Below, one piece after another: positions 29,287 to 62,943 of a stretch of 64,000 bases of DNA. This stretch comes from Mesodorylaimus sp. YZB2_4 (lineage: Eukaryota; Nematoda; Enoplea; Dorylaimida; Dorylaimidae): assembly GCA_030248295.1 (NCBI GenBank), contig JASANH010000125.1:1-64000 (forward strand). Reading direction: 5' to 3'. Both the position numbers and the translations under genes were made by a program. The notes beneath the pieces were generated by a model. That model had not been told where the DNA came from. It did no database searches and was given only the letters and a program-made list of their open reading frames with translations. Within the stretch, counting starts at the first letter, position 1. Each line of letters opens with the position of its first letter.

Positions 29287-32200
29287 ATGTTTGCGAAAAT
29301 GTGTTCAGAAAAATTGGCAAGATTAGAAATTCGGTTAACTTCTAGCTTCTGCTCATTCATTTATAATCGCCCGGTCACCGTGTTGGTGGTCAGTGGATTT
29401 CTCTCTGTCGTACTCCTTTCGTTGGGAATACACTTCAGTTCGTGGCCTGATTTTACGGACCAGGCTAAGGTAAGTTTTTAGTGCTCGAAATTTTAATTTT
29501 AATTTATACCTCTTACAAATGTCACTGATAAAATGCGAGAGAAATTCGTTTTTTTGATTCAAAACTCACTTCACACAACGCATTTTATTTACAGGGATTC
29601 GAAACCAGAAACACAGAACTTAGTAAGCATGTTGTGACATGGACTAAATTGGATAAACATATGAGCATATACTCCGACATATCGGAACCATATTTTCGGC
29701 GTCTACATCCGGATTCCTTTGCTGAAAACAAATTGAGGTATGTGACAAATACGAGTGTGACTATCAGTACAAACGCTTGATCAACTATAACTATGACGGC
29801 ACAGACTTTCTAGAAAAAAACGCCACAGTGCCTTCACTGGGCCGAGTCCATCTCGATCGAACGAAGGCAAGACATTTCTGGAATCTTTCTTCACTGGCGC
29901 CGCGGATGAATCGCCCTGTTTGCAAATCACTTTTGATAGCACTGATGAACAAGGAGCCTTTGCACAAAATGGTAAGTACTTTATGCGCTTATGCGATTTT
30001 TGGTCTTTCAAAAAACACTGCACTATATACACATTAATAAAGCACATAAATGTTGTCTGCGTTTCGTAGTACGAATCAGTTTAAAGTGAAAGACGCAGAA
30101 ACATTAGCAATCAGGTACTTTTATCTGTTTTCAGAGTCTCAGAACAACCGTATAGCTTTGTCGCACCTCACAAAATTGTTGACTTGTTCCATCAATGCCC
30201 CCGCTTTTGTGCAAAATAGGATGTTTTTTTAGCATATTTTTTCAGTCAAGTTATTTTTGAGTCGCCATCGTTCGACTCCCTTTTCTCACTCGACAGTATG
30301 AGCGAACTGTGCAAATTTCAAGCCGACACTGACAAAGTGCTCGACCCAATACGCTCAGCTATCGATTTCCGATATTTCTGGAGTCTACCCAATTATCTGA
30401 CTTGTATGAACGGCCTGCTTACATGCAACGAATTGACGGAAAAAAGTATCGTAAACTCGGCCAAAATTATTCGCGAATGTTTCGATTATAGAGAAATAAT
30501 TATTTTCTGTGGCTTACAACAAGATGGTTTTGAATATTTAAAAAGGCACCCAAAAAATTGTAGTCAACTTCCTTGTGAATGTCGCTCGAAATTTGTCTTC
30601 GGTATATTTTATTACATGTTATCAAAAAATGTTGTCAGTTCGAGCGGGCCAATTTACACGGACGTCATTCTGCCAGCATTGCAATGGGAGGCGTACGAAT
30701 ATCAAGGGACGCCTAATTTGACCAGCGATCAAATGTTGAATGTCTACAATAACTTGGCCGAATTAACTCAGGGAGTTCACCTACTGAAAGCGAAGGGCAT
30801 AACAATGGGTATCAAATATACGGCATTCTTGGAGACTTTCTATCGGGATTGCTTTTTCGTATTAGCCGCGTGGGTGGCTGTTTACTTGATCATTTGGCTA
30901 TATTCAGGATCACTCTTTTTCACGTTTGCTGTTCTCTTATCAGTCGTTTTCTCAGTAGGTGTCTCCTATTTCGTATATAAACTGGTATTTCGTCTCCAAT
31001 TTTTCCCATTCATGAATCTACTGATGGTCATTTTATTGATTGGTATCGGAGCTGATGATACGTTCGTGCTCAAGGTAAGGAAGGATACTGCGCTATTGTG
31101 GGTCAGGAGGACACCTTAATTTATGCTTTGTTGGTGGTGTAACATACTCGTAGGCGCACAGGTATTCAGCCCTGGAGGACAGTCGTAGAAAATCGCTGGT
31201 ACGTCAGCCAGTCAGATTGATGTTTCACAGTGTAGTCTTTGACTGTTGGAATAAGTTGTATGCGGAGTGCGTAAGCTCCCCGCGGCTTTGCCTACCAACG
31301 GTCAATCTCTGACTCAGGACGACACTATCTATCATGGAGGTGAGGGGGCTACATCAGCGACTTTGATTTTTCGAACGTGCCATGTGGTACTTATTCCCTC
31401 TAACTTCCTTCTGGGCGTGAGCTATCCACATAAACATGAGACTTTTTCAGCACATTTTCGACACTCCGTCTCGTAAATCACGTTCAGTCGTGGTGAATGG
31501 TGTTCCAACAACAATACCACCAGCATATGGAAAAGAGGACACGCGCGACGCTTTGTCGCACGCCGCACTCTCCATGTTCATCTGCAGCGCTACGACAGCA
31601 GCAGCATTTTATGCCAATTTGGTCAGCGATATCGTGGTGATCAAATGCTTTGGCGTCTTCGCTGGAACTACCATGCTAATCAACTATTTGTTGGTGGTGA
31701 CTTGGTTGCCTGCATCGCTCATCGTGCTTAATACTTATTTCGACCCGTGTTTCGAAAAGTTATGTCCGAGTGGGCTACTTGGATTCGCTCGCAAAGTTTG
31801 GGCCATGGGTGCCTTATTGCCAAACTATATTTTATTAACAGCTCTTCCACGTGCTGTCATGATGTTGAAGTATTTTTGGATCGCTCTCTTCAGCGCTATT
31901 TTCATTGGATCGTGCGTGGTGGTCTTTTATCAACCGGGTGTAGCTCTGCCTGTTCGAAATCCCCTACAAATGTTCAAACCTTCGAATCCTTTAGAGTGGT
32001 ACGATGATTTTGCCACGGAGTATTTCAGTTTTGCTGAAGATTTATTTAAACAACCGATGGAAGTGGTTGTAGTTTTTGGTGTGAAAGCGGCTGATGACAA
32101 TGGGCTGATGGAACCCAATGATTACGATGTCCCCCTCGAATCTACACAATTCTTTGCTGAACCAGGATTCCAAATGAATTTGACATTCCTGCACGCAATC

Positions 32201-33446
32201 AACGACGTATGTCATCAATTAAACAAAGCTAACTTTTTGCTTAATGTTATTCGATGCTTTCCGGATGACTTTTTCGAATGGTCGAAAAGACAAGGTTGCT
32301 CAGATAAGAAAAACACGACAGGAGATCCATGTTGTAATATTTATGAACCAACATTCGTCGATTCTAGGGATATGGTATTTTGTTTAGCACAGTCCACAAA
32401 AGCCTTGGATGTGATGGGCGGTGGACCAATATTTCGTATGAGCGATTTGAACAGGGCTGCTGGTTTTGTTCTTTATTATAATGCCAATTACACTTGGTCA
32501 CCAGATTACACAAAATTGAAAAAATTCTTTACAGATGTTGATGGTGGTATGAAAGAGGTAAATCAAAAAAGGCGGTCCGTTTTTAGCGAATAGTGAATCT
32601 AAATTAGATCACTCTCTGTCTAAATGTTCACCAAGGAAGACTTTATTTCAGATTCTGCAAGCAAGCGATCTGAAAGCGATCCAAGACGGCTGGTTTGTGA
32701 CAACTACTGTGCATCCACTCTTGTGGTACGACTTGCAATGCAGTCTGCTCAGAGGCACGACAGTCGGCATCCTGGTATCCGTGGGTGTGGCACTAATCGT
32801 GGCGGCAGTCACCATGCGTGCATTCGTTCTGAGCATCCTCAGCGTGATCACAGTATTTGCTATCAATGTGGTAATTATCGCCTGCCTGATCCTACTCGAT
32901 TGGCACTTGAACATTGTGGAGTCAACCCTGATTATATTGACCGTCGGGCTGGCATTTGACTTCACACTAAACTATGCAGTGGCTTATCAATTATCACCGA
33001 AAGGCACCAGGGAACAGAAAGTGTGCACTGTGCTGCAGTACATGGGTATGCCAGTATTTCTGGCCTTCCTGACGACTTTCGTGGCCGGCCTGATCATGTT
33101 GCCTTCATCAATCATGGCTTATTACCAAATAGGGGTGTTTATGGTTCTGGTGGGTGTGATCAGCTGGTTATACTCGGGCCTATTTTTCTTGTCACTTCTT
33201 GCCGTGGTTGGCCCTGAGGACTGTGAATGGACATTACTACAGAATATGATGCCCAATGCGGCTAAGAGATTCTGGAGGAGCCAAACCTCGACGGTGGCGT
33301 CCAGCGCAAGTGCGGGTGTGGAGGAAGCTAGGGCAGACAGTGTCGAGATGAGTGCCAGACAACAGAATGCAACTCAAGCGAGCAATAACGTGAATGCTAG
33401 AGTAGAAAATGGTGTGACAGTGCAAAGATTGGTACCTGATGCCTAG
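29287..33446 (+). CDS. Dispatched-family (CHE-14-like) RND transporter
   Basis: Dispatched proteins are 12-TM RND/sterol-sensing-domain transporters that release lipidated signals; nematode CHE-14 acts in apical secretion of epithelia. Exons in phase: 29287-29469, 29595-29737, 29829-29971 (or from 29805), 30135-30150, 30246-31074, 31154-31270, 31451-32557 and 32652-33446, giving 1,110 residues. Landmarks: an early TM, then the RND start motif GFETRNTELS, a Cys-rich luminal loop, FFPFMNL and the TM4 relay motif GIGADDTFVL, then HAALSMFICSATTAAAFYAN and NYLLVVTWLPAS typical of Dispatched, a second luminal loop with DPCCNIY, and a last exon with ESTLIILTVGLAFDFTLNYA, keeping the TM10 Asp of the proton/sodium relay. 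The 16-nt fourth exon is predicted because it alone restores phase between flanking exons. The N-terminal loop is the least certain part. Confidence 0.9.
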
Positions 33447-37957: not shown

Positions 37958-39020
37958 ATCATCAGTTGGAATCATTTCATTGCTTTTGCGATTATTGGTG
38001 GATTAGCAAATTTAGCAATTATTATTGTATGTTGTATGATTTTATTAAAAAATAATTAACGCGAAACTCAGCATTTGTGTATTAAAAGCGTGGCAGTAGC
38101 GGATTTCACATTTCTTGTAATACAGTGCCCGCTAATATTTGTAGGACAATGCGTAAGACTCGAGTTTACCAAATTCTTGTGCATGTTCGTCGTCTACATT
38201 ACTCACTTGCAACTGGTTGCCTCAAGCTTAAGTTTCCTGAGCTTGAATAGAGATAAATTCATTCGTCTAAGATTCCCTTTTCGCTACTTGACTCTGGTGA
38301 CCTTCCCTCGAGGTAAAGTATGCATTTGCGCACGTTGGCTTGTGGCAATATACTGGGGCATCTTTCTTCTATTTAGACCATTATTTGAATTTCGTGATAA
38401 CTGCGACGTTGATGTGGTCGGGCCATACGCCACGGAAATGTACTTAACATTCTTCATCTCATTCTTTCTAGCACCTGTTACGATCGCCATGCTGATCAGC
38501 TTCAACATTTACATACTGTGAAAAGATCGAGATTATCATTTCTCTCTTTACATCCAATCGAGCCGCGTGATCACCCCGGACGCTTTAGAGTTTACTTATT
38601 TTTAAAAAAAAGTTAAAAAATATGCAAATTTACGAGAATTGGATTCTGCTGACAAATGTGAAATTCGTGGGAAGAAAATAAAGCGACAGGGAACGTCATC
38701 GTCATTTCAAAGATTCAAGAGACAGACTCAATCCCACTTCAGATTTAAAAACAGCTATTTATGTCTCCAGCGCCACCATTTGGGCAGTTTTTACCGTGCT
38801 GCCATACCGCATAGTATATTTGACTACAATTTATCAAGATGACCATTGGTTTAATTGGCTGAAATGGGGGACAAATTTGATGCTGGCGCTTAACTCAGTC
38901 GGAAACCCGATATTGACCGTTTTCACACGACCGCGATATAAGAAAAAGATAAAAGGCATTCTTGGCCTGAATGTCAGAGGTGATGCCCCGACTACAGCCA
39001 CAGTGAGCACACTAAAATAA
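37958..39020 (+). pseudogene. TRH-receptor-like rhodopsin-family GPCR, disrupted
   Basis: A single frame from 37958 reads through TM1 (AIIGGLANLAIIIV), then a TAA at 38057-38059 exactly where intracellular loop 1 should be. The same frame continues through TM2 (VAVADFTFLV), TM3 ending SLNRDKFIRLRFP (DRY region changed to NRD), TM4 and TM5 (LAPVTIAMLISF). A TGA (38519) and a TAA (38603) interrupt loop 3, and a one-base shift around 38740 moves TM6-TM7 (VLPYRIVYL, NSVGNPILTVF) into the next frame, ending at 39020. The order and the PYR motif resemble thyrotropin-releasing-hormone receptors. Continuity of the loop-1 alignment across the TAA argues against an intron there, so I call a pseudogene; an unrecognised intron in loop 3 could excuse the other breaks. 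Sequencing error is the main alternative. Confidence 0.65.
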
Positions 39021-42722: not shown

Positions 42723-45700
42723 TTAATACGAGAATCCTCTTGTCTTGCAATCAGCCTTGACAAACTGTTGCACCAGGTTTCCGGCATCTTGACCTGAAAA
42801 ACACCTGAACGATATGGATACTACAGAAATAACTAGAGAAGCTTACCACTCCCACAGACACCACAAGACAGTGGACAGAACGCTTCAATTAACGAACGAG
42901 CAGCATTTCCCAAATCCTTGCACTGAATGTTTCTCCCCTTTTCACCACTGGAAAAATATGCCATATTATATTCCCTCCAGGAAACATAAGCCACATCACG
43001 TTTCTTCAAAGCGAGAGCAACAGGTTCTTCCGTAGGGTCTAATGAGCGACATACAGACTTGCACAACAATTCGCACGAAGAATGTGCGTCCTTGCAGGAA
43101 CCTAAAAAAATGACTCAATGTTTCAACGTAACATTCACTTTTACTGTTACTTGATGGCACACTGGTGGGCGAAGTAAGTGGTTGAACTGCGACAGTAAGC
43201 TGTTCTGGCTGTGCAGGTTGCGAAGGTTGCTCGGGATGTTCACCTGGTGGCTGTGGATGTTCTGGTTGAGATGGCTGAGCTGGCTCTTCCACATTTGGCT
43301 GTTCTGGCTGTACAGGTTGAGAGGGCTGTTCAGCTGGTGACTGTGGATGTTCTGGTTGAGATGGCTGAGCTGGATTTTCCACAGTTGGCTGTTCTGGCTG
43401 TGCGGGTTGCGAAGGTTGCTCGGGTTGTTCAGCTGGTGACTGTGGATGTTCTGGTTGAGATGGCTGAGCTGGATTTTCCACAGTTGGCTGTTCTGGCTGT
43501 GCGGGTTGCGGAGGTTGCTCGGGTTGTTCAGCTGGTGACTGTGGATGTTCTGGTTGAGATGGCTGAGCTGGATTTTCCACAGTTGGCTGTTCTGGCTGTG
43601 CGGGTTGCGAAGGTTGCTCATGTTGTTCAGCTGGTGACTGTGGATGTTCTGGTTGAGATGGCTGAGCTGGCTCTTCCACAATTGGCTGTTCTGGCTGTGC
43701 AGGTTGCGAAGGTTGCTCTGGTTGTTCAGCTGGTTGCTGTGGCTGCTCCTCAGCTGGTTGCTCTGCCGTTTGCTCAGGCTGAGATGGCTGAGCTGGCTCT
43801 TTCACAGCTTGCTGTTCTGGCTGTGCAGGTTGAGAGGGCTGTTCAGCTGGTGAGTGTGGATGTTCTGGTTCAGATGGCATGGCTGGCTCTTTCACAATTG
43901 GCTGTTCTGGCTGTGCAGATTGCGAAGGTTGCTCGGGTTGTTCAGCTGGTGGCTGTGGATGTTCTGGTTGAGATGGCTGAGCTGGCTCTTCCACAATTGG
44001 CTTTTCTGGCTGTGCATGTTGCGAAGGTTGCTCTGGTTGTTCAGCTGGTTGCTGTGGCTGCTCCTCAGCTTGTTGCTCTGCCGTTTGCTCAGGCTGAGAT
44101 GGCTCTTCCACAGTTGGCTGTTCTGGCTGTGCAGGTTGCAAAGGTTGCTCGGGTTGTTCGGCTAATGGCTGTGGATGTTCTGGTTGAGATGGCTGAGCTG
44201 GCTCTTCCACAGCTGGCTGTTCTGGCTGTGCAGGTTGAGGAGGCTGTTCAGCTGGTGAGTGTGGATGTTCTGGTTCAGATGGCTGGGCTGGCTCTTCCAC
44301 AATTGGCTGTTCTGGCGGTGCAGGTTGCGAAGGTTGCTCAGGTTGTTCAGCTGGTTGCTGTGGGTGCTCCTCAGCTGGTTGCTCTCCCGTCTGCTCATGC
44401 TGAGATGGCTGAACTGGCTTTTCCACAGTTGGCTGTTCTGGCTGTGCAGGTTCCGGAGGTTGCTCGGGTTGTTCAGCTTGTGGCTGTGGATGTTCTAGTT
44501 GAGATGACTGAGCTGGCTCGTCCACAGCTGGCTGTTCTGGCTGTGCAGGTTGAGGGGGCCGTTCAGCTGGTGCAGCTGGTTGCTGTTGCTGCTCCTCAAC
44601 TGGTTGCTCTGCCGTTTGCTCAGGCTTAGATGGCTGAGCTGGCTCCTCCACAGTTGGCTGTTCTGTCTGTGCGGGTTGCAAAGGTTGCTCGGGTTGTTCA
44701 GCTGCTGGCTGTGGATGTTCTGGCTGAGATGGCTGAGCTAGATCTTCCACATTTGGCTGTTCTGGCTGTGCAGGTTGCAAAGGTTGCTCGGGTTGTTCAG
44801 CTGGTTGCTGTGGCCCCTCCTCAGCTATTTGCTCTGCCGTTTGCTCAGGCTGAGATGGATGAGCTTGCTCTTCCACAGTTGGCTGTAATGGCTGTGCAGG
44901 TTGCGAAGGTTGCTCGGCTTGTTCAGCTGGTTGCTGTGGCTGCTCCTCAGCTTGTTGCTCTGCCGTTTGCTCAGGCTGAGCTGGCTCTTTCACAGCTGGC
45001 TGTTCTGGCTGTGCAGGTTGAGAAGGCTGTTCAGCTGGTGACTGTGGATGTTCTGGTTGAGATGGCTGAGCTGGATTATCCACAGTTGGCTCTTCTGGCT
45101 GTGCAGGTTGCAAAGGTTGCTCCGGTTGTTCAGCTGGTTGCTGTGGCTGCTCCTCAGCTGGTTGCTCTGCCGTTTGCTCAGGCTGAGATGGCTGAGCTGG
45201 CTCTTTCACAGCTTGCTGTTCTGGCTGTGCAGGTTGAGAGGGCTGTTCAGCTGGTGACTGTGGATGTTCTGGTTGAAATGGCTGAGCTGGATTTTCCACA
45301 GTTGGCTGTTCTGGCTGTGCAGGTTGCAAAGGTTGCTCGGGTTGTTCAGCTAGTTGCTGTGGCTGCTCCTCAGCTGGTTGCTCTGCCGTTTGCTCAGGCT
45401 GAGATGGCTGAGCTGGCTCTGCCACTGTTGGCTGTTCTGGCTGTGCAGGTTGCAAAGGTTGCTCGGGTTGTTCAGCTAGTGGCTGTTGATGTTCTGGTTG
45501 AGATGGCTTAGCTGGCTCTTCCACAGCTGGCTGTTCTGGCTGTGCAGGTTGAGGAGGCTGTTCAGCTTGTGAGTGTGGATGTTCTGGTTCAGATGGCTGG
45601 GCTGGCTCTTCCACAATTGGCTGTTCTGGCTGTGCAGGTTGCGAAGGTTGCTCTGGTTGTTCAGCTGGTTGCTGTGGGTGCTCCTCAGCTGGTTGCTCTC

Positions 45701-48700
45701 CCGTCTGCTCATGCTGAGATGGCTGAACTGGCTTTTCCACAGTTGGCTGTTCTGGCTGTGCAGGTTCCGGTGGTTGCTCGGGTTGTTCAGCTTGTGGCTG
45801 TGGATGTTCTAGTTGAGATGACTGAGCTGGCTCGTCCACAGCTGGCTGTTCTGGCTGTGCAGGTTGAGGAGGCTGTTCAGCTGGTGCAGCTGGTTGCTGT
45901 GGCTGCTCCTCAACTGGTTGCTCTGCCGTTTGCTCAGGCTTAGATGGCTGAGCTGGCTCCTCCACAGTTGGCTGTTCTGTCTGTGCGGGTTGCAAAGGTT
46001 GCTCGGGTTGTTCAGCTGCTGGCTGTGGATGTTCTGGCTGAGATGGCTGAGCTAGATCTTCCACATTTGGCTGTTCTGGCTGTGCAGGTTGCAAAGGTTG
46101 CTCGGGTTGTTCAGCTGGTTGCTGTGGCCCCTCCTCAGCTATTTGCTCTGCCGTTTGCTCAGGCTGAGATGGCTGAGCTGGCTCTTCCACAGTTGCCTGT
46201 AATGGCTGTGCAGGTTGCAAAGGTTGCTCGGCTTGTTCAGCTGGTTGCTGTGGCTGCTCCTCAGCTTGTTGCTCTGCCGTTTGCTCAGGCTGAGCTGGCT
46301 CTTTCACAGCTGGCTGTTCTGGCTGTGCAGGTTCAGGAAGCTGTTCAGCTGGTGGCTGTGAATGTTCTGGTTGAGATGACTGAGCTGGCTCTTCCACAAT
46401 TGGCTCTTCTGGCTGTGCAGGTTGCGAAGGTGGCTCTGGTTGTTCAGCTGGTTTGTGTGGCTGCTCCTCAGCTTGTTGCTCTGCCGTTTGCTCAGGCTGA
46501 GAAGGCTCTCCCACAGTTGGCTGTTCTGGCTGTGCAGGTTGCGAAGGTTGCTCGGGTTGTTCAGCTGGTGGCTGTGGATGTTCTAGTTGAGATGGCTGAG
46601 CTGGCTCTTCCACAGCTGGCTGTTCTGGCTGTGCAGGTTCAGGAGGCTGTTCAGCTGGTGGCTGTGGATGTTCTGGTTGAGATGGCTGAGCTGGCTTTTC
46701 CACAGCTGGCTGTTCTGGCTGTGCAGGTTGCGAAGGTTGCTCTGCTTGTTCAGCTGGTTGCCGTGGCTGCTCCTCAGCTGGTTGCTCCGCCGTTTGCTCA
46801 GGCTGAGATGGCTCTTCCACAGTTGGCTGTTCTGGCTGTGCAGGTTGCGAAGGTTGCTCAGGCTGTTCAGCTGGTGGCTGTGGATGTTCTGGTTGAGATG
46901 GCTGAGCTGGCTCTTCCACAGCTGGCTGTTCTGGCTGTGCAGGTTGCGAAGGTTGCTCTGCTTGTTCAGCTGGTTGCCGTGGCTGCTCCTCAGATGGTTG
47001 CTCCGCCGTTTGCTCAGGCTGAGCTGGCTCTTCCACAATTGGCTGTTCTGGCTGTGCAGGTTGCGAAGGTTGCTCGGGTTGTTCGGCTGGTGGCTGTGGA
47101 TGTTCTGGTTGAGATTCTTGAGCTGGCTCTTCCACAGCTGGCTGTTTTGGCTGTGCAGGTTGAGGAGGCTGTTCAGCTGGTGGTTGTGGATCTTCTGATT
47201 CAGATGGCTGGGCTGGCTCTATTACAATTGGCTGTTCTGGCAGTGCAGGTTGCGAAGGTTGCTCGGGTTGTTCAGCTGGTGGCTGTGGATGTTCTGGTTG
47301 AGATGGCTGAGCTGGCTCTTCCACAGCTGGCTGTTCTGGCTGTGCAGGTTGAGAAGGCTGTTCAGCTGGTGGCTGTGGATGTTCTGGTTGAGATGGCTGA
47401 GCTGGCTCTTCCACAATTGGCTTTTCTGGCTGTGCAGGTTGCGAAGGTTGCTCTGGTTGTTCAGCTGGTTGCTGTGGCTGCTCCTCAGCTTGTTGCTCTG
47501 CCGTTTGCTCAGGCTGAGATGGCTCTCCCACAGTCGGCTGTTCTGGCTGTGCAGGTTGCGAAGGTTGCTCGGGTTGTTTAGCTGGTGGCTGTGGATGTTC
47601 TGGTTGGGATGGCTGAGCTGGCTCTCCCACAGCTGGCTGTTCCGGCTGTGCAGGTTGAGACGGCTGTTCAGCTGGTGGGTGTGGATGTTCTGGTTCAGAT
47701 GGCTGGGCTGGCTTTTCCACAATTGGCTGTTCCGGCTGTGCAGGTTGCGAAGGTTGCTCGGGTTGTTCAGCTGGTGGCTGTGGATGTTCTGGTTGAGATG
47801 ACTGAGCTGGCTCGTCCACAGCTGGCTGTTCTGGCTGTGCAGGTTGAGGAGGCTGTTCAGCTGGTGCAGCTGGTTGCTGTGGCTGCTCCTCAACTGGTTG
47901 CTCTGCCGTTTGCTCAGGCTTAGATGGCTGAGCTGGCTCCTCCACAGTTGGCTGTTCTGGCTGTGCGGGTTGCAAAGGTTGCTCGGGCTGTTCAGCTGCT
48001 GGCTGTGGATGTTCTGGCTGAGATGGCTGAGCTAGATCTTCCACATTTGGCTGTTCTGGCTGTGCAGGTTGCAAAGGTTGCTCGGGTTGTTCAGCTGGTT
48101 GCTGTGGACCCTCCTCAGCTATTTGCTCTGCCGTTTGCTCAGGCTGAGATGGCTGAGCTGGCTCTTCCACAGTTGGCTGTGATGGCTGTGCAGGTTGCGA
48201 AGGTTGCTCGGCTTGTTTAGATGGTTGCTGTGGCTGCTCCTCAGCTTGTTGCTCTGCCGTTTGCTCAGGCCGAGCTGGCTCTTTCACAGCTGGCTGTTCT
48301 GGCTGTGCAGGTTCAGGAGGCTGTTCAGCTGGTGGCTGTGGATGTTCTGGTTGAGATGACTGAGCTGGCTCTTCCACAATTGGCTCTTCTGGCCGTGCAG
48401 GTTGCGAAGGTGGCTCTGGTTGTTCAGCTGGTTGCTGTGGCTGCTCCTCAGCTTGTTGCTCTGCCGTTTGCTCAGGCTGAGAAGGCTCTCCCACAGTTGG
48501 CTGTTCTGGCTGTGCAGGTTGCGAAGGTTGCTCGGGTTGTTCAGCTGGTGGCTGTGGATGTTCTAGTTGAGATGGCTGAGCTGGCTCTTTTACAGCTGGC
48601 TGTTCTGGCTGTGCAAGTTGAGGAGGCTGTTCAGCTGGTGGGTGTGGATGTTCTGGTTCAGATGGCTGAGCTGGCTCTTTCACAATATGCTGTTCTGGCT

Positions 48701-51700
48701 GTGCAGCTTGCGAAGGTTGCTCTGGTTGTTCAGCTGGTTGCTGTGGCTCCTCCTCAGCTGGTTGCTTTGCCGTTTGCTCAAGCTGAGATGGCTGAGCTGG
48801 CTTTTCCACAGCTGGCTGTTCTGGCTGTGCAGGTTGAGAAGGCTGTTCAGCTGGTGGCTGTGGATGTTCTGGTTCAGTTGGCTGAGCTGGCTCTTCCACA
48901 ATATGCTGTTCTGGCTGTTCAGCTTGCAAAGGTTGCTCTGGTTGTTCAGCTGGTTGCTGTAGCTGCTCCTCTGCTTGTTGCTCTGCCGTTTGCTCAGGCT
49001 GAGATGGCTCCTCCACATTTAGCTGTTCTTGCTGTGCAGGTTGCGAAGGTTTCTCGGGTTGTTCAGCTGGTGGCTGTGGATGTTCTAGTTGAGATGGCTG
49101 AGCTGGCTCTCCCACAGCTGGCTGTTCTGGCTGTGCAGGTTGGGGAGGCTGTTCAGCTGTTGGCTGTGGATGTTCTGGTTGAGATGGCTGAGCTGGCTCT
49201 TCCACATTTGGCTGTTCTGGCTGTGCAGGTTGCAAAGGTTGCTCGGGTTGTTCAGCTGGTTGCTGTGGACCCTCCTCAGCTATTTGCTCTGCCGTTTGCT
49301 CAGGCTGAGATGGCTGAGCTGGCTCTTCCACAGTTGGCTGTAATGGCTGTGCAGGTTCAGGAGGCTGTTCAGCTGGTGGCTGTGGATGTTCTGGTTGAGA
49401 TGGCTGGGCTGGCTCCTCCACAATTGGCTGTTCTGGCTGTGCAGGTTGCGAAGGTTGCTCGGGTTGTTCAGCTGGTGGCTGTGGATGTTCTGGTTGAGAT
49501 GGCTGAGCTGGCTCTTCCACAGCTGGCTGTTCTGGCTGTGCAGGTTGCGAAGGTTGCTCAGGTTGTTCAGCTGGTTGCCGTGGCTGCTCCTCAGCTGGTT
49601 GCTTCGCCGTTTGCTCAGGCTGAGATGGCTCTTTCACAGTTGGCTGTTCTGGCTGTGCAGGTTGCGAAGGTTGCTTAGGTTGTTCAGCTGGTGGCTGTGG
49701 ATGTTCTGGTTGAGATGGCTGAGCTGGCTCTCTCACAGCTGGCTGTTCCGGCTGTGCAGGTTGAGAAGGCTGTTCAGCTGGTGGGTGTGGATGTTCTGGT
49801 TCAGATGGCTGGGCTGGCTTTTCCACAATTGGCTGTTCCGGCTGTGCAGGTTGCGAAGGTTGCTCGGGTTGTTCAGCTGGTGGCTGTGGATGTTCTGGTT
49901 GAGATGACTGAGCTGGCTCGTCCACAGCTGGCTGTTCTGGCTGTGCAGGTTGAGGAGGCTGTTCAGCTGGTGCAGCTGGTTGCTGTGGCTGCTCCTCAAC
50001 TGGTTGCTCTGCCGTTTGCTCAGGCTTAGATGGCTGAGCTGGCTCCTCCACAGTTGGCTGTTCTGGCTGTGCGGGTTGCAAAGGTTGCTCGGGCTGTTCA
50101 GCTGCTGGCTGTGGATGTTCTGGCTGAGATGGCTGAGCTAGATCTTCCACATTTGGCTGTTCTGGCTGTGCAGGTTGCAAAGGTTGCTCGGGTTGTTCAG
50201 CTGGTTGCTGTGGACCCTCCTCAGCTATTTGCTCTGCCGTTTGCTCAGGCTGAGATGGCTGAGCTGGCTCTTCCACAGTTGGCTCTAATGGCTGTGCAGG
50301 TTGCAAAGGTTGCTCGGGTTGTTCAGCTGGTTGCTGTGGCTGCTCCTCAGCTTGTTGCTCTGCCGTTTGCTCAGGCCGAGCTGGCTCTTTCACAGCTGGC
50401 TGTTCTGGCTGTGCAGGTTCAGGAGGCTGTTCAGCTGGTGGCTGTGGATGTTCTGGTTGAGATGACTGAGCTGGCTCTTCCACAATTGGCTCTTCTGGCT
50501 GTGCAGGTTGCAAAGGTTGCTCTGGTTGTTCAGCTGGTTGCTGTAGCTGCTCCTCTGCTTGTTGCTCTGCCGTTTGCTCAGGCTGAGATGGCTCCTCCAC
50601 ATTTAGCTGTTCTTGCTGTGCAGGTTGCGAAGGTTTCTCGGGTTGTTCAGCTGGTGGCTGTGGATGTTCTGGTTGAGATGGCTGAGCTGGCTCTCCCACA
50701 GCTGGCTGTTCTGGCTGTGCAGGTTGGGGAGGCTGTTCAGCTGTTGGCTGTGGATGTTCTGGTTGAGATGGCTGAGCTGGCTCTTCCACATTTGGCTGTT
50801 CTGGCTGTGCAGGTTGCAAAGGTTGCTCGGGTTGTTCAGCTGGTTGCTGTGGACCCTCCTCAGCTATTTGCTCTGCCGTTTGCTCAGGCTGAGATGGCTG
50901 AGCTGGCTCTTCCACAGTTGGCTGTAATGACTGTGCAGGTTGCGAAGGTTGCTCGGCTTGTTTAGCTGGTTGCTGTGGCTGCTCCTCAGCTTGTTGCTCT
51001 GCCGTTTGCTCAGGCCGAGCTGGCTCTTTCACAGCTGGCTGTTCTGGCTGTGCAGGTTCAGGAGGCTGTTCAGCTGGTGGCTGTGGATGTTCTGGTTGAG
51101 ATGGCTGGGCTGGCTCCTCCACAATTGGCTGTTCTGGCTGTGCAGGTTGCGAAGGTTGCTCGGGTTGTTCAGCTGGTGGCTGTGGATGTTCTGGTTGAGA
51201 TGGCTGAGCTGGCTCTTCCACAGCTGGCTGTTCTGGCTGTGCAGGTTGCGAAGGTTGCTCTGGTTGTTCAGCTGGTTGCCGTGGCTGCTCCTCAGCTGGT
51301 TGCTCCGCCGTTTGCTCAGGCTGAGATGGCTCTTCCACAGTTGGCTGTTCTGGCTGTGCAGGTTGCGAAGGTTGCTTAGGTTGTTCAGCTGGTGGCTGTG
51401 GATGTTCTGGTTGAGATGGCTGAGCTGGCTCTCCCACAGCTGGCTGTTCTGGCTGTGCAGGTTGAGGAGGCTGTTCAGCTGTTGGCTGTGGATGTTCTGG
51501 TTGAGATGGCTGAGCTGGCTCTTCCACAATTGACTGTTCTGGCTGTGCAGGTTGCGAAGGTTGCTCGGGTTGTTCGGCTGGTGGCTGTGGATGTTCTGGT
51601 TGAGATTCCTGAGCTGGCTCTTCCACAGCTGGCTGTTCTGGCTGTGCAGGTTGAGGAGGCTGTTCAGCTGGTGGGTGTGGATCTTCTGGTTCAGATGGCT

Positions 51701-54700
51701 GGGCTGGCTCTATTACAATTGGCTGTTCTGGCAGTGCAGGTTGCGAAGGTTGCTCGGGTTGTTCAGCTGGTGGCTGTGGATGTTCTGGTTGAGATGGCTG
51801 AGCTGGCTCTTCCACAGCTGGCTGTTCTGGCTGTGCAGGTTGAGAAGGCTGTTCAGCTGGTGGCTGAGGATGTTCTGGTTGAGATGGCTGAGCTGGCTCT
51901 TCCACAATTGGCTCTTCTGGCTGTGCAGGTTGCGAAGGTTGCTCTGGTTGTTCAGCTGGTTGCTGTGGCTGCTCCTCAGCTTGTTGCTCTGCCGTTTGCT
52001 CAGGCTGAGATGGCTCTCCCACAGTCGGCTGTTCTGGCTGTGCAGGTTGCGAAGGTTGCTCGGGTTGTCCAGCTGATATCTGTGGATGTTCTGGTTCAGA
52101 TGGCTGGGCTGGCTCTTCCACAATATGCTGTTCTGGCTGTGCAGCTCGCGAAGGTTGCTCTGGTTGTTCAGCTGGTTGCTGTGGCTGCTCATCAGCTTGT
52201 TGCTCTGCCGTTTGCTCAGGCCGAGATGGCTCTTCCACAGTTGGCTGTTCTGGCTGTGCAGGTTGCGAAGGTTGCTCGGGTTGTTCAGCTGGTGGCTGTG
52301 GATGTTCTGGTAGAGATGGCTGAGCTGGCTCTCCCACAGCTGGCTGTTCTGGCTGTGCAGGTTGAGGAGGCTGTTCAGCTGTTGGCTGTGGATGTTCTGG
52401 TTGAGATGGCTTAGCTGGCTCTTCCACAATTGACTGTTCTGGCTGTGCAGGTTGCGAAGGTTGCTCTGGTTGTTCAGCTGGTTGCTGTTGCTGCTCCTGA
52501 GCTTCTTGCTTTGCCGTTTGCTCAGGCTGAGATGGCTCTCCCACAGTTGGCTGTTCTGGCTGTGCAGGTTGCAAAGGTTGCTCGGGTTGTTTAGCTGGTG
52601 GCTGTAGATGTTCTGGTTGAGATGGCTGAGCTGGCTCTCCCACAGCTGGCTGTTCTGGCTTTGCAGGTTGAAGAGGCTGCTCAGCTGGTGGGTGTGGATG
52701 TTCTGGTTCAGATGGCTGGGCTGGCTCTTCCACTATTGGCTGTTCTGGCAGTGCAGGTTGCGGAGGTTGCTCGGGTTGTTCAGCTGGTGGCTGTGGATGT
52801 TTTGGTTGAGATGGCTGAGCTGGCTCTTCCACAGCTTGCTGTTCTGGCTGTGCAGGTTGAGGAGGCTGTTCAGCTGGTGGGTGTGGATGTTCCAACTGGG
52901 ATGACTGAGCTAGCGCTTCCACATTTGGCTGTTCTGGCTGTGGAGGTTGCGAAGGTTGCTCGGGTTCTTCAGCTGGTTGCTGTGGCTCCTCCTCAGCTGG
53001 TTGCTTAGCCGTTTGTTCAGCCTGAGATGGCTGAGCTGGCTTTTCCACAGCTGGCTGTTCTGGCTGTGCAGGTTGAGAAGGCTGTTCAGCTGGTGGCTGT
53101 GGATGTTCTGGTTCAGATGGCTGAGCTGGCTCTTTCACAATATGCTGTTCTGGCTGTGCAGCTTGCGAAGGTCGCTCTGGTTGTTCAGCTGTTTGCTGTG
53201 GCTGCTCATCAGCTTGTTGCTCTGCCGTTTGCTCAGGCTGAGATGGCTTTTCCACAGTTGGCTGTTCTGGCTGTGCAGGTTGCGAAGGTTGCTCGGGTTG
53301 TTCAGCTGGTGGCTGTGGATGTTCCAGTTGAGATGGCTGAGCTGGCTTGTCCACAGCTGGCTGTTCTAGCTGTGCAGGTTGAGGAGCCTGTTCAGCTGGT
53401 GGCTGTGGATGTTCTGGTTGCGATGGCTGACCTGGCTTTCCCACAATTGGCTGTTCTGGCTGTGCAGGTTGCGAAGGTTGCTCTGGTTTTTCAGCTGGTT
53501 GCTGTGGCTGCTCCTCAGCTTGTTGCTCTGCCGTTTGCTCAGGCTGAGATGGCTCTTCCAGAGTTGGCTGTTCTGGCTGTGCAGGTTGCGAAGGTTGCTC
53601 GGGTTGTTCAGCTGGTGGCTGTGGATGTTCCAGTTGAGACGGCTGAGCTTGCTCGTCCACAGCTGGCTGTTCTGGCAGTGCAGGTTGAGGAGGCTGTTCA
53701 GCTGGTGGATGTGGATGTTCTGGTTGCGATGGCTGAGCTGGCTCTTCCACAATTGGCTGTTCTGGCTGTGCAGGTTGCGAAGGTTGCTCTGGTTCTTCAG
53801 CTGGTTGCCGTGGCTGCTCCTCAGCTTGTTGCTCTGCCGTTTGCTCAGGCTGAGATGGCTCCTCCTCAGCTGGTTGCTCTGCCGTTTGCTCAGGCTGTGA
53901 TGGCTGGGCTGGCTCTTCCACAATTGGCTGTTCTGGCTGTGCAGGTTGCGAAGGTCGCTCGGGTTGTTTAGCTGGTGGCTGTGGATGTTCTGGTTGAGAT
54001 GGCTGAGCTGGCGTTTCCACAGCTGGCTGTTCTGGCTGTGCAGGTTGAGAAGGCTGTTCAGCTGGTGGGTGTGGATGTTCTGGTTTAGATGGCTGGGCTG
54101 GCTCTTCCACAATCGGCTGTTCTGGAAGTTCAGGTTGCGAAGGTTGCTCGGGTTGTTCAGCTAGTGGCTGTGGATGTTCTTGCTGGGATGGCTGAGCTGG
54201 CTCTTCCACATTTGGCTGTTCTTGCTGTGCAGGTTGCGAAGGTCGCTCGGGTTGTTCAGCTGGTGGCTGTGGATGTTCTGGTTGAGATGGCTGAGCTGGC
54301 TCTTCCACAGCTGGCTGTTCTGGCAGTGCAGGTTGAGGAGGCTGTTCAGCTGGTGGCTGTGGATGTTCTGGTTGCGATGGCTGAGCTGGCTCTTCCACAA
54401 TTGGCTGTTCTGGCTGTGCAGGTTGCGAAGGTTGCTCTGGTTCTTCAGCTGGTTGCTGTGGCTGCTCCTCAGCTTGTTGCTCTGCCGTTTGCTCAGGCTG
54501 AGATGGCTCCTCCTCAGCTGGTTGCTTTGCCGTTTGCTCAGGCTGAGATGGCTGGGCTGGCTCTTCCACAATTGGCTGTTCTGGCTGTGCAGGTTGCGAA
54601 GGTTGCTCGGGTTGTTTAGCTGGTGGCTGTGGATGTTCTGGTTGAGATGGCTGAGCTGGCGTTTCCACAGCTGGCTGTTCTGGCTGTGCAGGTTGAGGAG

Positions 54701-56344
54701 GCTGTTCAGCTGGTGGGTGTGAATGTTCTGGTCCAGATGGCTGAGGTGGCTCTTTTACAGCTGGCTGTTCTGGCTGTGCAGGTTGCGAAGGTTGCTCTGG
54801 TTGTTCAGCTGGTTGCTGTGGTTGCTCCTCAGCTGGTTGCTCTGCCGTTTGCTCAGGCTGAGCTGGCTCTCCCTCAACCGGCTGTTCTTGCTGTGCAGGT
54901 TGCAAAGGTTGCTCAGGCTGTTCAGCTGGTTGCTGTGGCTGCTCCTCATCTGGTTGGTCTGCCGTTTGTTCAGGCTGAGATGGCTGAGCTGGCTCTTCCA
55001 CAGTTGGCTGTTCTGGCTGTGCCGGTTGCGAAGGTTGCTCGGGTTGTTTAACTGGTTGCTCTGTCTGCTCTTCAGCTGGTTGCTCTGCCGTTTGTTCAGG
55101 CTGAGATGGCTGAGCTGGCTCTTTCACAGTTGGCTGTTCTGGCTGTGCCGGTTGCGGAGGTTGCTCGGGTTGTTCAGCTGGTGGCTGTTGATGTTCTGGT
55201 TGAGATTGCTGAGCTGGCTCCTCCACAGCTGGCTGTTCTGGCTGTGCAGGCTGAGGAGGCTGTTTAGCTGGTGGCTGTGGATGTTCTTGTTGAGATGGCT
55301 GAGCTGGCTCTCCCACAGCCGGCTGTTCTGGCTGGTTAGCTTGGTGTTCTGGGCTTCTACCTGGTTCCGTTGCTGGTTTGTGGTTGCCTGTTCCAATGCT
55401 TCCAGTCTCAGAGACTTCATCATATCCTCCATTTTCCATCCACCAGTCATAATACGCTTGTTCTAAAAGTGTTCTTATTCGCGAGGTTTGGGTGCTTTTC
55501 ATCTCATCTCACCATCAGCTAGAATTAAATCAGCTCGTTCTTGTTCGGTTTCGCTTCTTTGGCACTTGTAGTATTTTCCCTGAATCACGGCGTATGCTTG
55601 TATATCAATCCAAGCTCCATTGCCAGCTTTGCAGCCTAGAAATGATGTTTTTTACTTAATTTCTTCTTGTCATAAGAGAATTTCTTCACCTGTTGCTCTT
55701 GCTTCATAGTTATTTTTTTCTTGAAAGCATGTTATGCTTGTGTTTCCAGAGAACCAGGTTTGGCCTGGACGGTGAAATGAATTATTCGTGATGCATCCCG
55801 GTTCATACTTCCGAGTGACAAACCCATTAGAACTACTGACACATCGATATCGGCCCTTTCTAGGGACATTCATCGAGCTACCGATTTCTATCACGTTTCC
55901 TGTTGGCGCCACACAAGCTGAAAGAACATGAAAACTTTGTTAAATAGGATATATCTCGCTGCAACCTTTTTGTGCTCCTTTTCTTACCGATTACATCAAG
56001 CGATAGCGTCAAGTAGTCGTCAGACCATCTGCATTCAAACTTGAAGCTGCCGCTCGACCAGGTTTCACCTGGTGTTAATTCTTGACCGCCGATGACGTTG
56101 CCGGGCACACAGGCTAAAATATTCATTTTTGCACTTCTATAAATGCTCGCATTGTAACGTTATTACCAATTGGATTTGTTCCCCATACAACGCCGTCTTC
56201 GACGTAGCATTCGAATTTTATTTTGTTTTCAACCCATATGTCGCCTGGCTTACACTCTGTATTGAAATCACCCACGCTATGTCGTGGTATTCTCGCGGCA
56301 GCAGCAATAGCTGCAGCAGCAGCGAGAAGGCACAGTCGTAGCAT
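42723..56344 (-). CDS. Giant secreted Pro-Glu-Gln repeat protein with MIG-18-like modules and ShKT-like tail
   Basis: Seven exons on the minus strand, every junction phase 1: 56344-56167, 56113-55988, 55917-55690, 55635-55513, 55462-43151, 43101-42847 and 42793-42723. Total 13,293 nt, exactly 4,431 codons including the stop. Residues 1-18 are an Ala-rich signal peptide (MLRLCLLAAAAAIAAAA). Residues about 25-218 hold five modules, each with two Cys and a motif like C-x-PG-x-n-W-x-n-F-x-C, resembling the fibronectin-I-like domain of nematode MIG-18-type proteins. A linker (EQAYYDWWMENGGYDE) leads to about 4,000 residues of Pro, Gln, Glu and Ala repeats with units such as AEQPEQPSQPAQPEQP, VEEPAQPSQPEHPQPP and SQPEQTAEQPAEEQ, with almost no Cys or aromatic residues. 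Residues about 4322-4407 form an eight-Cys ShKT-like domain ending CPLSCGVC. Introns are 49-70 bp. Likely an extended extracellular matrix, cuticle or lumen protein; that role is inference. Confidence 0.85.
43200..55330 (-). repeat. Pro-Glu-Gln coding tandem array with higher-order blocks
   Basis: About 12 kb of one exon is made of imperfect units of roughly 33 codons with two interchangeable endings (PEHPQPPAE or PEQTAEQPAEEQPQQPAE). Large blocks are copied: the rare marker NVEDLAQ (plus strand gctagatcttccacattt) occurs at about 44738, 46049, 48029 and 50137. The block 44.4-45.0 kb matches 45.7-46.3 kb (offset about 1.31 kb), 47.84-48.35 kb matches 49.95-50.46 kb (offset about 2.1 kb), and 49.02-49.35 kb matches 50.60-50.93 kb (offset about 1.58 kb). 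Unequal exchange is the likely mechanism. Confidence 0.85.
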
Positions 56345-56456
56345 ATGGTCCTAAAGTGTTGTATTCAGAACAATACGGTTACCAAAGGCGACGATGGCGA
56401 ATACAGTACTAACGTTAAGCACTGACTTAATTGCATGAAACAAGGGACAGTGTTCT

Positions 56457-62310: not shown

Positions 62311-62943
62311 ATGGGGTCAGGTGGAACGGGCGATATGACGCCAATGAAGATATATTGTCTGTGCGTAATTTACGTCTTCTCTCTCCTTTGCGTTTCTTCT
62401 GCGGAGCTGCAGAGAGCAGTCGCAAAAGGTCATTTACTTTGTGGTGACCAACCTGCGAGGGATGTCAGAGTTAAGCTATTCGACGAAGGTACATTTCTGA
62501 GCACACTGCAAAACTCTTACTCCAAAGTTTTTAATTGTCATTTAGACGTTGTTCTGGACGATCTGCTGGATGAAAAAAGAACCAATTCTACTGGACATTT
62601 TCTGGTGGACGGCGTCACGCGAGAAAGATCAGACATTGAGCCAGTCGTCGTTATTTATCATAACTGCGACGCGCCAGTGGTAAGCGAGCTTCCCATGTGT
62701 TACAGATTAAGAATCTTTCAATTTTTTATGGAACACACTATTAAATGCTTTTAGAGATGTGATCGCCGTATGATGGTATATATACCCAAGAAATACATTA
62801 ATCGTGGAGAGAGCATCGATACCAGTCGAAATATCGATATGCTAAAAGTGTTTGACATTGGTGTGATCAATTTAGAATCGTACATCTATGGGCGGGGAGT
62901 TTATGACAAGCTTAAAGACAGAGTTTGCTGGCATAAGAAGTAG
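62311..62943 (+). CDS. Transthyretin-like (TTR-like) secreted protein
   Basis: Three exons: 62311-62488, 62546-62679 and 62755-62943 (introns 57 and 75 bp), 166 residues. A signal peptide is clearest from Met12 (MKIYCLCVIYVFSLLCVSSA), so 62344 may be the true start. The mature protein follows the nematode TTR-like pattern: AKGHLLCGDQPARDVRVKLF, then DEDVVLDDLLDE formed exactly across the first splice junction, NSTGHFLVDG, IEPVVVIYHNCDAP, and after the second junction RCDRRMMVYIPKKYINRG...FDIGVINLE. Cysteines of the family are kept. TTR-like proteins are small secreted beta-sandwich proteins, among the most abundant nematode secretory products; one C. elegans member (TTR-52) bridges phosphatidylserine on apoptotic cells, but most have no known ligand. 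Length and exon layout look intact and functional. Confidence 0.93.

Follow-up and report, generated by a model that had tools for sequence, protein, structure and literature searches.

The window, i.e., the whole 64,000-nucleotide stretch of Mesodorylaimus sp. DNA that was analyzed, carries a minus-strand model (56344-42723) of seven exons and 4,430 aa, in which two cysteine-bearing caps flank a very long proline-rich spacer. On balance, the sequence is considered to be a real single gene encoding a secreted structural polymer, and its product would most probably be an extracellular material of stretchy or gel-like nature. This cautious preference applies to the explanation as a whole.

Gene model and exon layout

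The model matched exactly that of the preliminary description, i.e., seven exons, all joined in phase 1, with a whole number of codons. All six introns are GT-AG introns of 49-70 nt, and the only stop in the CDS is at its terminus. Two other in-frame donors are present at intron 5, giving 4,432 or 4,434 aa, and therefore the exact donor is left undecided. The features are listed below with their basis in brackets.

56167..56344, minus strand: exon 1, apparent signal peptide (MLRLCLLAAAAAIAAAA) and first 2-Cys FN1-like unit (model; Fn1_2 profile)
55988..56113, minus strand: exon 2, second 2-Cys FN1-like unit (model; Fn1_2 profile; paralogous exons)
55690..55917, minus strand: exon 3, third and fourth 2-Cys units (model; paralogue comparison)
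55513..55635, minus strand: exon 4, fifth 2-Cys unit (model; Fn1_2 profile)
55425..55462, minus strand: start of exon 5, conserved YxxW motif (YYDWWMENGG) (paralogue comparison)
43151..55462, minus strand: exon 5, 12,312 nt, Pro/Gln/Glu/Ala repeat spacer (model; composition; repeat analysis)
42847..43101, minus strand: exon 6, two-part eight-Cys tail containing the dibasic motif VALALKKR; its second half is ShK-like but under the Pfam cut-off (model; profile; tail comparison)
42723..42793, minus strand: exon 7, final 23 residues including a ninth Cys, then stop; the least supported exon (model)

The apparent signal peptide was assigned by eye, and to that extent the earlier claim was borne out. 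An acceptor-like CTTTAG lies 6 nt 5' of the ATG in exon 1. A genome search for the SL1 RNA family, in which 50 of 31,302 candidates were scored and the control was likewise silent, gave no match, and the exact SL1 leader sequence gave 0 matches; trans-splicing therefore could not be tied to SL1. Exon 7 found no support among paralogues; in the tail search of the genome, exon 7 matched nothing but itself.

Repeats are prone to mis-assembly, and 12.3 kb lie between the two ends of the gene, which would suit an artefact in which pieces of adjacent genes were fused across a non-coding satellite. This is very improbable and already largely refuted. At seven of seven loci compared, the Tyr/Trp (YxxW) motif opens the low-complexity exon, and the acceptor AG precedes the Tyr codon by exactly 8 nt. 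The tails behave similarly; in all 13 examined, an acceptor AG precedes the first Cys codon by 5 or 2 nt, giving phase 1 if used. Because the exon starts are conserved at both ends, a chimeric gene model was rejected; paralogues back both doubtful joins, i.e., the exon 5 start and the tail acceptor, as the single gene proposed earlier would have it. Both caps also occur in a sister gene, C28:101074-99062 (C28_101k). Furthermore, a single frame of exon 5 stays open for 4,103 codons with neither stop nor frameshift, whereas the longest open run in 200 dinucleotide shuffles was 312 on average and 510 at most; the shuffles destroy the repeats and are therefore a loose control for open-frame length.

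The paralogue family and its caps

The gene is not the lone oddity it had seemed. In the same genome, the N cap recurs at seven or more further loci and the tail at 12 or more. The best N-cap match outside the window had an E value of 4.4e-24, and exon 3 showed 32-51% identity to the same exon in seven paralogues. The family was defined by an Fn1_2 N cap, a low-complexity linker, and a YxxW exon start and a two-part Cys tail that each follow a phase-1 acceptor, and all of these were found together in the window gene and C28_101k. The latter encodes the N cap, YLNWL, a short T/P linker and the tail in 520 aa when read through the tail acceptor; a 54-nt phase-1 intron ending at this acceptor also fits. 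C111 (391 aa, start not identified) accommodates a phase-1 intron of 55 nt whose end precedes the Tyr codon by 8 nt, and its tail is matched weakly (E 0.12 and 0.18). At C28_105k, automatic modelling gave no linker-to-tail join. C28:202k has the N cap, with no repeat exon recognized within the 4.6 kb read, and C90:1-2000 showed no match to either cap. The frames of C10 and C90 are broken in the assembly. The family plan, as predicted from these sequences, is a signal peptide, Fn1_2 modules, the Y-x-x-W motif, a variable Pro-rich spacer and an ShK-like two-part Cys tail. Since paralogues share the exon starts and a sister gene has both caps, the window gene is the largest family member seen.

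The N cap is composed of five 2-Cys units with 10 Cys in total. Against Pfam Fn1_2 (PF23003; 70 profile positions, cut-off 27 bits) it scored 66.1 bits (E 3.2e-18) in three stretches and thus belongs to Fn1_2 in the profile check proposed earlier for the N-terminal region. The separate pieces scored 31.3, 23.9 and 29.8 bits, of which 23.9 (exon 3 alone) is under the cut-off. Of the five MIG-18/fibronectin-I-like modules described before, the FN1-like character holds, but the count does not, i.e., five 2-Cys units correspond to three Fn1_2 stretches. No match was found in NCBIfam, which covers bacteria and archaea, or in a sequence search of PDB. MIG-18 carries Fn1_2-type modules, and those of the window N cap score as the same type; in contrast to MIG-18, the window gene splits them across four phase-1 exons. 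In the available text of PMC4856095, MIG-18 is a secreted basement-membrane protein working with the ADAMTS protease MIG-17, and neither a Pro-rich spacer nor a Cys tail is mentioned there, whereas the window gene has both.

The tail had been described as an eight-Cys, ShKT-like domain. It is Cys-rich with eight Cys in exon 6, but a ninth lies in exon 7, and ShKT membership failed. Taking membership as a score above 20.9 bits across the whole six-Cys domain, the tail reached 15.1 bits against ShK (PF01549) and matched only profile positions 22-37 of 37. The ShK/ShKT assignment was rejected on both counts, i.e., a score below the cut-off and a half-motif of the last 16 positions. The tail shares its CPxSCGxC ending with ShK proteins and differs from them in its sub-threshold score, its two-part layout of eight Cys and the dibasic motif separating the halves. 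Three sister tails scored 21.2 (C15:490.9k, above the cut-off), 19.0 and 9.7 bits. A dibasic motif of KR or RR type was counted by eye between the halves in 11 of 13 tails.

These two features, the resemblance of the second half to ShK and the recurrent dibasic motif, could suggest that the caps are signalling or channel-acting (ShK-like) modules, carried on a long stalk or freed at the conserved dibasic site. Such a role is improbable. The window score is under the cut-off with only the end of the profile matched, a spacer of 4,100 residues would be needless for it, and ShK domains in nematodes are found in many kinds of protein.

Other searches with the tail gave one match in NCBIfam (the bacterial and archaeal library), far under its cut-off, and three in a sequence search of PDB at E 0.3-0.95, taken as chance. 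The cysteine-cradle domain CCD-aECM (PF23626; four invariant Cys) gave no match at E up to 10, and membership was rejected. A six-frame genome search with PF23626 also gave no match, and its positive control was silent too.

The proline-rich spacer

Exon 5 is composed of P (27.5%), Q (23.9%), E (18.1%) and A (11.5%), in about 109 repeat units mostly of 30, 33, 39 and 42 aa. Its 4,103 residues have a net charge of -690, no Cys and only six Y, W or F in sum. Ser (5.0%) and Thr (2.3%) are low, and the spacer is therefore not mucin-like. An extended Pro-rich spacer, as proposed earlier, was supported. At lag 3, proline is 2.24 times as frequent as expected. This periodicity, the absence of Cys and the few aromatic residues would fit polyproline-II or disorder. 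The length of more than 1 micrometre given before holds for a chain pulled out to its full contour (4,103 x 0.31 nm = 1.27 um), but not as a predicted resting size.

The spacers of the paralogues are diverse. The C10 spacer (QPTQPEQP) is close in style to that of the window and has a lag-3 proline value of 2.97. The Pro-rich C90 spacer (EAPEQPTAAPEVPT), C984 (EIPVPPKVEP) and C15 (QQPFEPVPFPP) show lag 3 weakly or not as the main period, i.e., 1.73 in C90 (lag 7, 3.35), 1.27 in C984 (main lag 10) and 1.58 in C15.

The spacer frame is kept open without codon-level conservation. Omega within the repeats is 1.15-1.30, so amino-acid changes look near-neutral, and the numbers of differences per codon position are near-equal (1115, 1083 and 988). 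No stop was observed against 3.7 expected from 53 singleton changes (P 0.029), or against 18 expected from 308 changes on a spanning tree (P 2e-8), a figure that presumes independent changes, a premise violated by gene conversion. Changes to hydrophobic residues or Cys numbered 34 against 49.7 expected (p 0.010, uncorrected).

Omega near 1 means no purifying selection on repeat residues, and the spacer could therefore be largely passive bloat, i.e., a tolerated disordered linker grown by repeats, with the caps doing the work of a small two-cap secreted protein. The even codon positions and the retention of both caps in short-linker paralogues (C28_101k, 520 aa; C111, 391 aa without its start) are in its favor. 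We regard it as rather unlikely. At least four other loci have long Pro-rich spacers, of which three (C90, C984 and C15) clearly differ in wording and C10 resembles the window, while hydrophobic changes are depleted and the 4,103 codons are free of stop and frameshift. The alternatives weighed here exclude neither one another nor the preferred explanation.

Proposed material and related systems

In the preferred explanation, in which the product is a structural polymer that is secreted, both Cys-rich caps would serve as conserved nodes, binding either partners in the matrix or each other, possibly via disulphides. The Pro-rich, strongly acidic and Cys-free spacer would be an extended, hydrated and extensible polyanionic strand, for which length and composition would be important and the exact letters of little consequence. 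Assembly may be end-to-end or cap-to-matrix, in an extracellular matrix that would most likely be apical, such as the cuticle, the lining of the pharynx, the egg or a gland secretion. Secretion, the mode of cap assembly and the matrix location are deduced from sequence. The product may act as a matrix tether, cuticle filler or gel-forming secretion, as first proposed. For the functional class of gel-forming or disulphide-linked end-capped polymers, only the Cys counts of the model bear on interchain bonding via the end domains. With 10 Cys in the N cap and nine in the tail, at least one would lack a partner in the mature chain, provided that exon 7 is correct; the odd count, like exon 7, is without paralogue support.

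It is also possible, though doubtful, that the product is secreted by a gland, the gut or the reproductive tract, as a lubricant, plug, adhesive or food-handling mucus analogue, and is not a built-in cuticle part. The soluble polyanion character and the composition low in Ser and Thr would suit this, and the sequence names no tissue. Nothing direct stands against it, but FN1-like and Cys caps are usual in fixed matrices too.

Spidroins have a repetitive centre flanked by non-repetitive terminal domains; they resemble the window protein in plan and differ in composition and fold. Glutenin repeats are of low charge, whereas the window spacer is strongly acidic. In the available part of PMC7795185, HMW glutenin subunits of wheat have Cys-bearing conserved ends and a long repetitive centre of variable length (481-872 residues). 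The window protein shares these Cys-bearing ends around a repeat centre, without a claim of homology, but the glutenins are plant storage proteins with shorter centres.

Among nematode matrix proteins, DPY-6 and SPIA-1 are nematode-specific, secreted and largely disordered, with a small C-terminal Cys domain (CCD-aECM) that in DPY-6 is required for ordering furrow collagens, according to the available parts of PMC11925461 and PMC13225626. The window protein is alike in its putatively disordered and secreted chain and small C-terminal Cys domain, but its tail has eight to nine Cys instead of four with no PF23626 match, it has an FN1-like N cap, and its spacer is P/Q/E whereas DPY-6 is Ser/Thr mucin-like. 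The disordered families of the C. elegans pharyngeal cuticle are secreted, low-complexity and Cys/Pro/Gln-enriched, with a bias against charged residues, in the available text of PMC9629831, whose main text mentions neither fibronectin nor ShK. The window spacer is similarly low-complexity and Pro/Gln-rich, but unlike them in its net charge. The use of both kinds of protein in nematode matrices favors the structural polymer, and the bias against charge counts against it.

No printed description of the two-cap Pro-rich architecture, and no named protein with it, was found in the papers searched, which agrees with the earlier statement that no such named protein is known. Tentatively, the plan of FN1-like head and split-Cys tail may be fixed, whereas nearly any extended sequence rich in Pro could take the place of the spacer (P/E/Q, P/E/A/T, P/E/V/I/K, P/Q/F or T/P) and be extended to thousands of residues. 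Selection would then act on length, open frame and composition and hardly on letters, and heads and tails with odd Cys and a dibasic processing motif would link chains into networks, an animal counterpart in nematodes of glutenin or spidroin architecture.

The window gene illustrates how small phase-1 exons can cap a runaway repeat exon, and a spacer this long between two Cys domains is a candidate biomaterial. One genome holds a natural series with the same secreted plan and very different spacers, and therefore what matrix spacers are selected for, i.e., length, charge or wording, becomes directly testable.

Gene model and end domains

The preliminary description had proposed a gene of seven exons, and this model was reproduced on the minus strand, i.e., 4,430 residues with one terminal stop. 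All six introns were GT-AG, 49-70 nt long and in phase 1.

Exons of the window gene in the reproduced model
56344-56167, minus, exon 1
56113-55988, minus, exon 2
55917-55690, minus, exon 3
55635-55513, minus, exon 4
55462-43151, minus, exon 5 (spacer)
43101-42847, minus, exon 6
42793-42723, minus, exon 7

Because intron 5 has two other in-frame donors (giving 4,432 or 4,434 residues), this junction is frame-correct but not residue-exact. An in-frame stop in the repeat would have spoken against the model; none was present in the assembly sequence, and exon 5 (12,312 nt) was open over 4,103 codons. Open runs reached at most 510 codons in 200 dinucleotide shuffles of exon 5 (mean of the longest, 312), and 545 in its remaining five frames. 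An acceptor-like CTTTAG (window 56345-56360) lies 6 nt 5' of the start codon, which is compatible with trans-splicing. The exact SL1 leader had zero matches in the genome assembly.

The N cap, i.e., residues about 25-218 from exons 1-4, consists of five two-Cys units (ten Cys). As expected from its fibronectin-I-like description, it matched the Fn1_2 profile (PF23003) at 66.1 bits. The tail has eight Cys from exon 6 and one from exon 7, and ends in CPLSCGVC, similar to ShK (PF01549). It had been likened to ShKT, but its 15.1 bits fell short of the 20.9-bit cut-off, with profile positions 22-37 alone matched; three sister tails scored 19.0, 21.2, and 9.7 bits. On these profile scores, the tail is best termed ShK-like, not ShK. 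A cysteine-cradle domain (CCD-aECM, PF23626) was ruled out for the tail, with no match in the profile search. The tail is built of two halves with four Cys each. A motif of the form VGxAxxKR, read by eye, separates the halves in 11 of 13 tails examined, counting a V-A variant (window) and an R-R variant (C28_102k, on contig C28); the tails on C111 and C6 are without it. This dibasic motif is a possible candidate site for cleavage.

The genome comprises 145 Mb in 1,067 contigs, and the window corresponds to C214:1-64000. In six-frame searches, it gave 116 matches for the cuticle collagen N domain (E up to 1e-5), which to our knowledge is restricted to nematodes, 73 for ShK (E up to 0.001) and 79 for Fn1_2 (E up to 0.01; some under the Pfam cut-off). 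The genome is accordingly read as that of a nematode. CCD-aECM gave no match, and a control search was equally silent. Three of the seven neighbouring ORFs scanned in the window gave a family, all ordinary, and four gave none.

Neighbouring ORFs with a family match
31421-32590, sterol-sensing/Patched-type
38060-38518, 7tm_1 (rhodopsin-type) receptor
62311-62751, transthyretin-like

Paralogues and the single-gene model

Sequence search with the two caps detected relatives on other contigs, and the N cap also matched further, more distant Fn1_2 genes.

Paralogue loci by contig
N cap: C28:105.6k, C28:101k, C28:202k, C10, C90, C984, C111
Tail: C28 (three), C15 (two), C33 (four), C86 (two), C6
Tail, partial: C107 (two, second half only), C111 (weak)

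A spacer exon was recognised at seven loci, the window included; at all seven it opens with Y-x-x-W, and an AG stands exactly 8 nt ahead of the Tyr codon. An AG also precedes the first tail Cys codon in 13/13 tails examined (5 nt in seven, 2 nt in six), a set that leaves out C107 and one of two C86 copies, and would give phase 1 if used as acceptor. At C28_99k it was read by eye, because a second AG is nearer to the Cys codon. C33:495k and C33:506k have an identical opening peptide; they may represent one recent duplication.

Models of sister genes also join both caps. The C28:101074-99062 model has 520 residues, i.e., N cap, YLNWL, Thr/Pro linker, and tail; its final residues overrun the likely end. 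It passes through the tail acceptor unspliced, but splicing at this acceptor, with a phase-1 intron of 54 nt, is also compatible with the sequence. The C111 model runs from cap to tail over 391 residues, with no start found. It used another, anchor-forced acceptor, and a phase-1 intron of 55 nt whose end lies 8 nt ahead of the Tyr codon fits there. At the C28:105.6k locus an AG lies 5 nt ahead of the first tail Cys codon, yet the automatic linker-tail join was not obtained. Because of the conserved exon starts and the sister genes with both caps, the two caps are assigned to one gene on homology, which counters the alternative that the ends come from separate genes.

Three further features were observed. 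At C28:105.6-102.2k, two N-cap exons are separated by a modelled intron of 1,251 nt, which is filled with a short satellite repeat reading SCGSNASHAVAMHLMR. Short tail-only relatives lie at C33:484-507k and C86:162-167k, some close together in opposite orientation. At C33:498k and C86:167k an insert separates the two Cys halves of the tail, Pro-rich in the former.

Spacer composition and selection

The window spacer has about 109 repeat units, e.g., QPEQPAVEEPAQPSQPEHPQPPAEQPEQPSQPA, with lengths of 33, 30, 42, and 39 residues in 29, 25, 18, and 18 of 108 spacings. It is composed of P (27.5%), Q (23.9%), E (18.1%), and A (11.5%), with zero Cys and a net charge of -690.

Spacers of the paralogues
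C10: QPTQPEQP-type, style near the window's
C90: EAPEQPTAAPEVPT
C984: EIPVPPKVEP, 758 open codons, runs past contig edge
C28:101074-99062: Thr/Pro
C15:494.6k: QQPFEPVPFPP stretch, 917 open codons, then tail

At C15:494.6k, the stretch of DNA covered contained no recognisable FN1 cap. The N-cap paralogue at C10:224497-228565 has a distinct C-terminus, CCCKDNVALFRQLNTILENHLKINAESLDKLTNILDQLVKKQG, which includes a CCC motif and a segment resembling a helix. This suggests that the tail was swapped, perhaps for one with an oligomerising helix. The frame of this paralogue is apparently broken once, near 226.9k. That of C90:1-8700 is broken several times toward the start of the contig, where the search as far as base 1 gave no convincing match to the tail; the breaks at both loci may be assembly errors or decay.

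Pro at lag 3 was 2.24x expectation in the window and 2.97x in C10, which fits polyproline-II-like strands. It was weaker in C15 (1.58x) and C984 (1.27x; main period 10). The main Pro period of C90 was 7 (lag 7, 3.35x; lag 3, 1.73x). The proposed length above 1 micrometre holds for the contour (1.27 um), but as an upper bound only, not as relaxed size. A relaxed polymer chain is far smaller than its contour length.

Among 29 bounded 33-residue units, differences were nearly even over codon positions (1115, 1083, and 988). Omega was 1.30 for 53 singleton changes and 1.15 when 108 units were connected by a minimum spanning tree (308 codon changes of one base). Given these values, the letters of the spacer appear close to free. 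No stops arose against 3.7 expected in the singletons (P 0.029) and 18 in the spanning-tree changes (P 2e-8, a value that is too strong if changes were spread by gene conversion). Changes to hydrophobic residues or Cys were depleted (34 against 49.7 expected; p 0.010, uncorrected, one of several groupings), as were Arg changes (14 against 28), and Lys changes were enriched (47 against 21).

Proposed role and known systems

Sequence analysis established the gene model, the family, its common caps and its differing spacers. An apparent signal peptide would export the window protein. The caps would fold by disulphides and may bind matrix or one another, and the spacer, as an acidic, hydrated, extended strand, could give reach, extensibility or swelling. 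Since ten plus nine Cys leave at least one unpaired, interchain bonds would be permitted, if exon 7 is correct.

Both cap types are already known or near-known. The literature searched, which covered few subscription papers, gave no account of the two caps in combination, nor of the Y-x-x-W junction, a tail in two parts separated by a dibasic motif, the exchange of spacers or the length. Glutenin subunits have an analogous plan (PMC7795185). DPY-6 and other cysteine-cradle proteins of nematodes are mostly disordered with a C-terminal Cys domain, which DPY-6 requires for cuticle patterning (PMC11925461, PMC13225626, and PMC11304992). Their plan is analogous, but the window tail is not a cysteine-cradle domain. 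Pharyngeal-cuticle proteins of C. elegans were reported to avoid charged residues (PMC9629831), which counts against a pharyngeal-cuticle role for a protein with a spacer of net charge -690. The window protein probably belongs with end-capped disordered secreted polymers.
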